Assembly: GCF_026213295.1 (NCBI RefSeq)
Contig: NC_079425.1
Location: 28,557,188 to 28,621,187, forward strand
Reading direction: 5' to 3'
DNA length: 64,000 nucleotides
From: Gadus chalcogrammus
Taxonomy: Eukaryota > Chordata > Actinopteri > Gadiformes > Gadidae
The position numbers and the translations under genes are program-made. Of this stretch, positions 1-43,689 are shown one piece after another; position 1 is the stretch's first letter; every line of letters starts with the position of its first letter. The notes beneath the pieces are model-generated. The model did no database searches, was not told the DNA's origin, and saw only the letters and a list, made by a program, of their open reading frames with translations.

Positions 1-62
1 TCGATCAATGTGTCTGTTTAGTTAAAGCTCTTTGATCAATATGTCTGCTAGTTAAAGCCCTT
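1..62. repeat. Minisatellite (about 31-bp unit), two copies
   Basis: Two tandem copies of a unit containing TTGATCAATRTGTCTG and AGTTAAAGCTC. It is the mirror of the minisatellite at 42904-43060 in whamm intron 1. The window starts inside it, so the left-arm copy number is unknown. Confidence 0.8.
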
Positions 63-120
63 ATTTGTTATATAAAGGATGACTGTAGTGTTAATCAGTC
101 AACAAAATCCCCAACCCAAA

Positions 121-193
121 ATCCCCCCCCCCCCCACCCCCCCCCCCCCCCCACACGGACACACACACACACACACCACACACACACACACAG
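121..193. repeat. Poly-C tract followed by (CA)n
   Basis: About 30 C interrupted once, then CA/CAC repeats ending at the AG of the exon 2 acceptor in the left-arm whamm copy. Mirror of 42762-42841. Confidence 0.9.
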
Positions 194-366
194 TTGCTGC
201 AGAGCCACTGGGCCGCAGACAGGATGGTCCTGCTGCTGGATCTCTACCAGGACGAAGACCAAGCCTACCAGGACCTGGTCACCGCAGCCACCGTCTTCTT
301 CCAGTACCTGCTGCAACCCTTCAGGGACATGAGGAGCTGTCCTGCCTCTACAAGATGGAGATCCTG
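194..366 (+). pseudogene. whamm: whamm exon 2, left-arm copy with frameshift
   Basis: This is a mirrored copy of exon 2 (42588-42761). It has an acceptor AG at 192-193 and a GTAAAC donor at 367. It is 173 bp against 174 bp: one G is missing in the run after GGACATGAG, which breaks the frame where the intact copy encodes DMRELSCL. I cannot tell whether the lost base is biological or a consensus error. Confidence 0.85.
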
Positions 367-498
367 GTAAACAAAGCCCATACAAACACACACACACACA
401 CACGCACATGCACACTGGGACACACATAAAGCTGACATGCATCAGCCCTAGGTGAATTAAAGCATGTGAATTGCTGACAGCGGGTGTTCCTCCTACAG

Positions 499-649
499 AA
501 GCTGCTGGACTATGAGGAGCTGGGCCCAAAGCGACTGTCTGCTCTGGAGAAGGAGGCGGAGGAGTGGAGGAGGAGAGCGGAGGATGCCGTCTCATCCATC
601 CAGGACGTCACCGTCCGCAACTTCATACAGACGTCCAAAGCTCTGTCAG
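499..649 (+). pseudogene. whamm: whamm exon 3, left-arm copy
   Basis: It matches the right-arm exon (42303-42453) at full length, 151 bp, with a CCTACAG acceptor and a GTGCCT donor. One substitution changes VRYFIQT to VRNFIQT. It is intact on its own, but belongs to a copy whose exons 2 and 4 are frameshifted and whose exon 1 is not in the window. Confidence 0.85.
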
Positions 650-40840: not shown

Positions 40841-40854
40841 ATCTCCTCTTTTAA

Positions 40855-41560
40855 GGTTGTTTGTTGTATGTTATTTTACCGTTATTACACAAATATATGA
40901 CCGGAAGGTTTCTGGGGTGTAACGTTTCAGTTGTTTTCCGCAGCCGGGGAAAACACAAACACAAACCATCCCTCTCTTTTGACTTCAAGCTGTAGATAGG
41001 TCTTCTTCTCCGGTGCTTGAGCTGTCCTTCACTCTATGCGTTAATCACATGTGCAGTGCGTCTTCAGTCAACAACGTGCCAACGCTTGATTGTAGCGAAC
41101 AAATATTTTGTAACTGTAACCTGCACATGCATGTCCTTTAGTTTACGTGTCAACACTTGCTATATATTATTTATAAATATTAATTATATTAATTATAAAT
41201 TCCAAAACTTTCCTCCTTGAACTGTACTCCGGCGCATTCGGCAATCGACTTCTGTGGACTTCCTGTAAACACGGACCTACCGGTAATGCTTGTTAAACTG
41301 ACTTTTTAAATAAACTCCGGGTTTAGGGACCATAGTCATGCTACTGCTGAGGTTAGGTGCTATTTTTAACAATATTAGTGGTTCAAAAATGCCGATTTGG
41401 AAGCGAAACTCAATGCCCCAAGCCAATAACATGGACGCCAAACTTTGCGCCAGGCAAACTCGAATACTCGATTTTCAATGAAAAAGGTATCGGGTGGCTT
41501 ATTTTTTTTCATGCCGAAACAAGGACCCTGGGTTAAATTTTCGCCGGAATTACACTTTAA
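40855..41560 (-). mobile_element. THAP-bearing repeat, outer copy, right arm
   Basis: Mirror of 1385-2085, in the orientation opposite to 36880-38105. It has the same internal deletion, joining GGTTTCTGGGGTGT to the TGACC/ATATATT segment. Confidence 0.7.
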
Positions 41561-41847
41561 TGTAAAACCACTGTAATAAAACGGTTCTCCATATCTTAAG
41601 GACTCTTTGAGAAAAAGGGAAAGAAAACAAAACTCTGCTCCCGTCACATGAGAAGGCTTCATACCCCCTTGTATTCATGGTTTCATTTGAGTCCAACATT
41701 GTCCCCTCCGAACGCATGATTCATATAGAGAGCGGCGCGACCCCATAGGGCCGAGGGTTGACCTTTACAAAGGTCAGACCAAAACCCTGACCCTAGTGTT
41801 TACCTTAGAGGGGTTAGGGTTAGACCACCCTGGCAAGCGGGACGTAC

Positions 41848-42017
41848 CCGCTCTCTGATGCCCTCCTTCTTGCGTTTCAGACACATCTCAGAGGCCCTCA
41901 TGTGCTGCAGGGACTCCTTGGCCATCAGGAAGCGCAGTTTCTCCAGTCGGGGCATGGCCGAGGCCCAGGCCGACGCCCCGAAGCGGCCCTTGTCCTCCTC
42001 CATCTGCTTGACCATAC
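41848..42017 (-). CDS. whamm: whamm exon 4, last exon present
   Basis: 170 bp, GMVKQMEEDKGRFG to KKEGIRER, phase 1 to 0, acceptor TGCCCAG and donor GTACGT. No further whamm exon is found in the remaining ~20.5 kb of this arm, which is repeats to the axis. Confidence 0.87.
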
Positions 42018-43689
42018 CTGGGCATTTGAAGTTAGACTGGTTTGATTTGTTAGAGTGGTTAGGGTGGTTTATACACAAGGCCAACAGTACTGATCAAGGG
42101 ACTACTAATACATTTTAATTTAAATACATGGCAGTACCAACTCCACACACACACACACACACACACACACACACACACACACACACACACACACACACAC
42201 ACACACACACACACACACACACACACACACACACACACACACACACACACACACACACACACACACACACACACACACACACACACACACTGAAGGAGGC
42301 ACCTGACAGAGCTTTGGACGTCTGTATGAAGTAGCGGACGGTGACGTCCTGGATGGATGAGACGGCATCCTCCGCTCTCCTCCTCCACTCCTCCGCCTCC
42401 TTCTCCAGAGCAGACAGTCGCTTTGGGCCCAGCTCCTCATAGTCCAGCAGCTTCTGTAGGAGGAACACCCGCTGTCAGCAATTCACATGCTTTAAATTCA
42501 CCTAGGGCTGATGCATGTCAGCTTTATTGTGTGTCCCAGTGTGCATGTGCGTGTGTGTGTGTGTGTGTTTGTATGGGCTTTGTTTACCAGGATCTCCATC
42601 TTGTAGAGGCAGGACAGCTCCCTCATGTCCCTGAAGGGTTGCAGCAGGTACTGGAAGAAGACGGTGGCTGCGGTGACCAGGTCCTGGTAGGCTTGGTCTT
42701 CGTCCTGGTAGAGATCCAGCAGCAGGACCATCCTGTCTGCGGCCCAGTGGCTCTGCAGCAACTGTGTGTGTGTGTGTGTGTGTGTGTGTGTGTGTGTGCG
42801 TGTGGGGGGGGGGGGGGGGGGGGGGTGGGGGGGGGGGGGGGATTTTGGGTTGGGGATTTTGTTGACTGATTAACACTACAGTCATCCTTTATATAACAAA
42901 TAAGGGCTTTAACTAGACAGACATATTGATCAAAGAGCTTTAACTAAACAGACACATTGATCGAAGAGCCTTAACTAGACAGACACATTGACCAAAGAGC
43001 TTTAACTAGACAGACACATTGACCAAAGAGCTTTAACTAGACCGACACATTGATCTAAGTGCTCTACGTGCATCAGAATAGAGCCCTACCTTTCTCAGGT
43101 GGTCCTTGGCTCTTGAAACCTCTTCTTGCATAGTCTTCTTCTTAAACTCTTGTAGATTTTCAAAGTACTCCTCGACATCATCCTGAGAGAACAACGAGTC
43201 GAGGACTATCTTTCGCCCGCAGATATCAATCGCCGTGCTGAAATATCTTTCCAGGTTTCGACAAGGCATATCTATATCTCTCCCATCGTCGTCCTCCTCG
43301 CCCAGGTTGGACCTCCTGGTGAGGAACAGCAAATCCCAGATGTTCCCATCTTCGAAGTCTGATAAATCCGGAAAATAGGGCCCCAATATATCGGCCACCC
43401 CCGTCAGCTGCTGGTGGATCATCCTCAGGTCGTGGAGAGAGAACAGCCCGGCCCAGCTCGTCTCGTCGGGGTCCAGTTCAGCGGAGAGTCTCCTCTCTTC
43501 GGGGTCCTGCTCAGCGGGGAGTCTCCGCGTCCGCCGCTGCAGCGTCCTGTTGTGACAAGTGACCGCGAACTTGGACTCGATCACACTCCACTGGACGATG
43601 AAGACCAGTCGAAACAACTCCTCTTCATCAAAAAGGTTCGTCTTTACGGCGACCCAACCGTCTAAGCTGTCCATGCTGTTCGTTTCCAT
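41848..43689 (-). CDS. whamm: whamm-like gene, exons 1-4 only (truncated by the palindrome)
   Basis: Four exons on the minus strand (43090-43689, 42588-42761, 42303-42453, 41848-42017) splice to 1095 nt, 365 codons, all in phase (0, 0, 1, 0). The N-terminus (DSLDGWVAV, FAVTCHNRT, SWAGLFS) and the coiled-coil part ([52 protein letters not shown]) match the WHAMM/JMY family; LEKEAEEW and PRLEKL favour WHAMM. In that family the N-terminal region targets membranes, the coiled coils bind microtubules, and C-terminal WH2-CA motifs drive Arp2/3 actin assembly. The C-terminal exons are not found anywhere in the window. The head-to-head fsd2 neighbour supports the identification. JMY is the main alternative. 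Confidence 0.85.
42145..42290. repeat. (CA)n microsatellite, ~147 bp, uninterrupted
   Basis: Pure CA dinucleotide run in whamm intron 3; mirror of the interrupted tract at 661-811. Confidence 0.97.
42303..42453 (-). CDS. whamm: whamm exon 3
   Basis: 151 bp, [12 protein letters not shown] to TSKALS plus one base, phase 0 to 1. The donor GTGCCT is followed at once by a ~147-bp GT tract on the coding strand. The coiled-coil heptads continue. Confidence 0.87.
42588..42761 (-). CDS. whamm: whamm exon 2
   Basis: 58 codons, LLQSHWAADRMV to KMEIL, phase 0 both ends. The acceptor CAG is the end of a (CA)n run with a poly-C tract upstream rather than a standard pyrimidine tract. The donor is GTAAAC. 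Confidence 0.87.
42762..42841. repeat. (GT)n plus poly-G tract at whamm exon 2 acceptor
   Basis: About 40 bp of GT followed by more than 30 G with one T, plus-strand reading. On the transcribed (minus) strand this is poly-C then CA directly before exon 2. Confidence 0.95.
42904..43060. repeat. Minisatellite, ~31-bp unit, about five copies
   Basis: Tandem CTTTAACTAGACAGACACAT / TGATCAAAGAG units in whamm intron 1, just inside exon 1. The left arm's visible end (base 1) maps inside this repeat. Confidence 0.9.
43090..43689 (-). CDS. whamm: whamm exon 1
   Basis: Exactly 200 codons from ATG (43687-43689) to ...DHLRK, then a GTAGGG donor, phase 0. It holds the WHAMM-type N-terminal domain and the LERYFSTAIDICGRKIVLDSLF segment. 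It is the only whamm exon seen once; its mirror would lie just left of base 1. Confidence 0.88.

Follow-up and report, generated by a model that had tools for sequence, protein, structure and literature searches.

The window analyzed here is a stretch of 64,000 nucleotides from Gadus chalcogrammus contig NC_079425.1 (hereafter C14; C14:28557188-28621187) in the assembly GCF_026213295.1 (629.9 Mb, 168 contigs), and the subject is a giant inverted repeat whose two arms each carry a tandem array, a long interspersed nuclear element (LINE), and part of a WHAMM/JMY-family gene. The analysis covered the assembled sequence of the window and of the 60 kb on either side of it. The left arm (1-21278, forward strand) is the reverse complement of the right arm (21283-42964, reverse strand), and the four-base spacer between them, ACTC (21279-21282), is the axis of symmetry. 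From the axis outward, each arm contains the tandem array, about 3 kb of other sequence, the LINE, and exons with matches to the JMY domain. The array is built of units of ~1.24 kb and occupies 7724-21278 on the forward strand in the left arm (spacings 1234-1789) and 21283-35217 on the reverse strand in the right arm (spacings 1241-1789). The LINE of the right arm has a frame (38375-40870, reverse strand) that is open over 831 amino acids and contains endonuclease and reverse transcriptase domains, while its left copy (2085-4564, forward strand) has 43 indel positions relative to the right arm and a frame in pieces. Further out, a domain search placed three JMY-domain exon matches of the WHAMM/JMY-family gene in the right arm (41842-42018, 42298-42510, and 42588-42782, reverse strand), with copies in the left arm (173-346, 493-654, and 988-1071, forward strand) that are all lower-scoring. 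The first exon of the gene (43036-43731, reverse strand; Pfam WHAMM-JMY_N, 246 bits) lies just right of the palindrome and outside it. The right arm is continuous with the sequence from 43 to 64 kb and is the trustworthy copy; the left arm is a low-quality mirror copy of it that starts directly after a gap of undetermined bases (N).

Compared by BLAST and by global alignment, the two arms show this mirror arrangement, which is far beyond chance. Over the aligned columns, gaps excluded, the arms are 99.7% identical (21,182 matches in 21,237 columns), and with gaps counted the two main BLAST pieces reach 99.2% and 99.6%. An earlier note on this DNA had described a near-perfect inverted repeat of > 42.9 kb with a 4-bp spacer, mirrored through genes, LINEs, and a tandem array. 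The repeat is present in the assembly with the structure described, each arm holding one LINE and some ten array units. The description needs qualification in two respects: the differences are uneven, 97 of the 129 grouped events lying in the non-array part (1-7750) and the other 32 in the array, with the outer-end overhang and trimming at the axis included, and one array unit of the left arm lacks 371 bases. A second arm in reverse complement behind little or no spacer, here four bases, is the geometry of a fold-back artefact.

The outer end of the left arm coincides with the end of the assembled sequence. Window base 1 is directly preceded by a 4,449-base N run (C14:28552739-28557187), the sole N stretch between 60 kb left and 60 kb right of the window, so that the left arm forms the end of a contig and has no assembled flank on its outer side. 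The earlier note had left the full size open on the ground that the left arm was still paired at base 1; the pairing at base 1 was confirmed, and the size is now settled, as the assembled palindrome ends at this gap. Compared at megablast sensitivity with the window and with the 60 kb on its right, the 55 kb lying to the left of the gap gave a single inverted match of > 300 bases, a 404-base repeat with 83% identity. The point of the right arm that matches the outer end of the left arm falls within a 31-bp minisatellite of 5.2 copies (42902-43063), and the left arm stops after two of these copies. An arm ending at a contig end or gap with no unique flank beyond it is characteristic of a fold-back artefact, whereas a genuine germline palindrome should have unique flanks on both arms; the left side being a gap, no such flank has been assembled there, which counts against a real palindrome. 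Long runs of G and C lie within the last 300 bases before the gap (L014) and are a plausible cause of the contig break on that side. Also left of the gap, a satellite array of ~188-bp period switches orientation between the blocks L013:6620-7506 and L013:8210-L014:1720.

In the non-array part, the 97 events amount to 48 net losses, 30 net gains, and 19 substitutions in the left arm. One-base indels account for 67 of them, and 57 of these 67 fall in homopolymer runs of at least two bases, which hold 48% of the bases (binomial 3.6e-10). The LINE allowed the differences to be polarized against third copies of the same element. Of 1376 candidates at first look, 40 were scored, giving 30 loci, one of which was the query, and the other 29 were used. 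Counted inside aligned blocks, the right arm has no gap relative to 28 of these copies and one gap relative to the remaining copy; the left-arm LINE is separated from the right arm by 43 gap openings and 15 mismatches. The arms differ at 57 LINE sites (25 insertions, 18 deletions, and 14 substitutions in the left arm), and when these sites were compared across the 29 copies, 1650 of 1653 cells had the right-arm state, three had another state, and none had the left-arm state. All 57 polarized differences, 43 of them indels, thus lie in the left arm and none in the right, as uncorrected read-type errors confined to one arm of a fold-back artefact would. The right arm has private variants, defined by disagreement with at least 80% of the other copies, at 18 sites, and the left arm has the same state at 18/18 of them. 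As these private variants are common to both arms and the polarized differences are all on the left, the left arm represents the same locus with superimposed errors, not a sister copy with its own history. Judging from these comparisons, it is by all appearances a noisy re-reading of the right arm, with sequencing-type errors on one side.

This polarization bears on any reading in which the palindrome is real, since a genuine germline palindrome should show either differences in both arms or homogenized arms. An old palindrome or a diverged inverted segmental duplication would account for the arms showing some differences, but differences that are one-sided and rich in indels are the opposite of ordinary divergence; we rejected this explanation on the LINE polarization and give it a negligible probability. 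A real but very recent duplication faces the same ratio of 57 to 0, made up mostly of indels. An earlier polarization with a single third copy had found the left arm odd in 68 columns and the right arm in 5, with 4 undecided. By their position, the five right-arm columns were read as edges of an extra block in that third copy and of the alignment, and the 29 copies show the left-arm state at no site. The extra block is present in all 29 other LINE copies (~372 bases in 27, longer in 2) and missing from both arms. The LINE copy at this locus accordingly lacks ~372 bases, a multiple of 3, relative to 27 others, and the missing segment lies inside the reverse-transcriptase match. The family itself is young, with the 29 other copies being 98.2-99.2% identical to the right-arm copy per aligned block and showing one indel in all.

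The axis of the palindrome lies on a hairpin (21269-21292) with a 10-bp stem, GCTGCCATTG/CAATGGCAGC, and a 4-nt loop, and the palindrome spacer coincides exactly with this loop, which is that of a natural hairpin of the array unit. The GCTGCCATTG-loop-CAATGGCAGC hairpin occurs at 19 sites in the window, namely at the axis and at nine sites in the array on each side of it. Three of the sites away from the axis, folded as single-stranded DNA, gave ~-12 kcal/mol (z ~-5), and 0/200 shuffles were as good. The right array (13.9 kb) contains ten hairpins with a stem >= 10 and a loop of 3-8, the axis included, compared with an average of 0.08 in 50 shuffles of the array, and the chance that a random axis within the array would meet a hairpin is ~7e-4. 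A short inverted repeat that stands at the axis and belongs to the parent sequence, as the 18 further array sites indicate here, is what a fold-back nucleated by a hairpin calls for, be it in vivo or in vitro. The four-base spacer is explained because the axis sits on this natural hairpin; a plain end-to-end reading of the two strands would not be expected to give a spacer. No Rfam family matched the window at gathering thresholds.

The position of the turn is also relevant to a purely computational origin, in which the array was walked in both orientations, or a unitig was placed twice, with no fold-back molecule involved. Array units are found in both orientations elsewhere, for example on C7, and the assembly graph may consequently be tangled. 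A unitig used twice should, however, be letter-identical, and the 7.75 kb outside the array hold 97 difference events; moreover, the turn is at the hairpin loop, and a 10-bp stem is probably too short to serve as an assembler overlap. We consider the chance of this explanation to be small.

In yeast, hairpins of this form do give rise to chromosomal rearrangements. PMC7467729 describes fold-back inversions, notably with defective Mre11 or Sae2, with a median loop of 4 nt in mre11 and 3 nt in sae2 mutants. The resemblance is in the hairpin with a loop of a few nucleotides at the axis; the difference is that the yeast inversions are true chromosomal products, while the present one is known from an assembly. 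On this model, the palindrome in G. chalcogrammus would be a real, very recent duplication, formed by in vivo fold-back priming at an array hairpin after a double-strand break, with the left arm badly assembled. The axis is of the same form as the short-loop hairpins that yield inversions in yeast, and in a perfect palindrome all reads could have settled on the better arm, so that its counterpart stayed unpolished. Against it, besides the missing left flank and the one-sided LINE differences, stand the suppression of short-loop events by Mre11-Sae2 in yeast (PMC7467729) and the expectation that a piece of the WHAMM/JMY-family gene would then sit back-to-back beside its own 5' part. We regard this origin as having a very small probability. 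If it were true, a newborn palindrome of > 42 kb formed via a unit hairpin would imply that such dispersed arrays seed inverted duplications genome-wide.

The palindrome is thus very probably an artefact of one kind or the other, either a fold-back molecule or a computational duplication, and most likely an assembly artefact derived from a fold-back sequencing molecule. The real chromosome would be single-copy, consisting of what is now the right arm, with the 5' part of the WHAMM/JMY-family gene, the LINE, and an array of ~1.24-kb units running leftward. The contig would have entered this array at a place where the end of the DNA bore the unit hairpin (10-bp stem, loop ACTC). During library preparation the fragment end may have snapped shut on the hairpin, or a polymerase may have turned at it, and sequencing of one long molecule would then have followed one strand to the loop and come back along the other. 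The second strand would have extended the contig leftward by 21.3 kb to the scaffold gap, with no other reads to correct it. The library stage of the event, the sequencing platform, and the support by a single read are what we infer. The claim of the earlier note that this is a giant palindrome of a kind rare in vertebrate autosomes finds no support in view of the contig end at base 1, the one-sided errors of the left arm, and the axis on a natural hairpin; the same features favor the chimeric molecule or assembly error that it had listed as an option.

Comparable artefacts have been described for long reads. In genomic reads from Oxford Nanopore Technologies (ONT), Heinz et al. (2026, PMC12870357) report fold-backs in 0.55-0.6%, of which typically less than half have > 11 bp between the segments, and deem library preparation the most likely origin; for PacBio HiFi, they report virtually no fold-backs (three PacBio samples examined in all). 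A 2021 nanopore study of human ribosomal DNA (PMC8559705) likewise describes ONT pseudo-palindromes, about two thirds of which have a quality drop around the turn. The palindrome analyzed here resembles these artefacts in being a near-perfect inverted copy with almost no spacer, and the drop at the turn in the ribosomal DNA study is a further likeness. It differs from them in being a contig end in an assembly, not a read, and in having its axis on a natural repeat-unit hairpin. The Pacasus paper (PMC6218980) documents how artificial inverted duplications end up in an assembly, as is proposed here, and names missed SMRTbell adapters as a source. Palindromes from whole-genome amplification or missed adapters would have the same structure, but a missed adapter should not favor a natural hairpin. 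Palindromic reads are also stated to impair assembly from amplified DNA (PMC13265396). The PDSM model (PMC10908179) ties library chimeras to natural inverted repeats, which, on the authors' hypothesis, pair in single-stranded ends and are fixed as chimeras by end repair; this snap-back is close to what is proposed here, although short-read libraries were concerned there and the arms here measure 21 kb. A narrow literature search, in which most terms were required together, found no report on contig-end or misassembly cases.

Some observations weigh against a fold-back molecule. Differences from the right arm are far sparser in the left array than in the remainder of the left arm, and we would attribute this, on the sequence pattern, to a consensus built from the reads of other units together with residual error. 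Across nine unit pairs, 20 of the 21 left-arm substitutions correspond to a base present in another right-arm unit, and 10 of these 20 are located in the left unit that is missing the 371 bases and seems to be a hybrid between two types of unit. The left array also has 17 indel columns, 7 of which form one block, that match no right-arm unit. The substitution pattern does not discriminate between the readings, because a real palindrome undergoing gene conversion could show much the same. The loss of the 371 bases would not be expected from simple re-reading without consensus error. Finally, a real palindrome could itself have a low-quality contig end, as its better arm would attract the good reads.

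Matches of the array and of its surroundings elsewhere in the genome were assessed from the best 40 of 3803 candidates. Within this set, the outermost 383-400 array bases (window 35218-35613, mirrored on the left) recur at no fewer than 38 other places (i.e., >= 38) on 13 contigs, and all of these matches end within query positions 383-400. The array looks as if it belonged to a dispersed repeat or mobile element that has tandem units of 1.24 kb inside it. For the non-repetitive sequence at 35.6-37.2 kb, the best 40 of 3803 candidates included only the two arms and a 137-base match of 86% identity on C4. Among them there was thus no third copy of this part to reveal what truly lies on the left, and the result counts in favor of the artefact.

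For the WHAMM/JMY-family gene, the three exon matches scored 68.2 vs 79.5, 54.1 vs 61.6, and 22.9 vs 74.9 bits in the left and right arm, respectively. The third left match contains an internal stop, and the second right match has two, which may mean that it runs beyond the exon boundary. With all candidates scored (16/16), the JMY matches on C14 cover domain positions 18-191 and are confined to the arms, none extending beyond position 191, and paralogues are present on C4 and C6. The C4 paralogue (17.857-17.876 Mb) covers positions 1-263, its two end matches being weak, and that on C6 (9.155-9.166 Mb) covers only 22-136. The 3' part of the gene, if it lay left of the gap, would have revealed the true gene order, but a tblastn search of the C14 window +/- 60 kb with the two exons that follow in the C4 paralogue gave noise-level matches only (best E ~0.2 among the matches listed). 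A match at window position -6122 (E 0.75) lies in frames that we take to be transposon-type sequence. The 3' part of the C14 gene may lie in the gap, or it may have diverged. Beside the gene, on the opposite strand, the open frames at 44405-45178 are suggestive of a coiled-coil, FSD2-like neighbor, and had no family match.

If uncorrected, the left arm leaves the G. chalcogrammus assembly with a false rare autosomal palindrome, in which part of a WHAMM/JMY-family gene is falsely duplicated in inverted orientation. In practice, when one arm of a palindrome borders a gap and shows one-sided indel noise relative to third copies of a repeat inside it, that arm can be flagged as a likely artefact from the assembly alone. 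Natural unit hairpins at the axis offer a concrete molecular cause, which could be sought in other assemblies as well.

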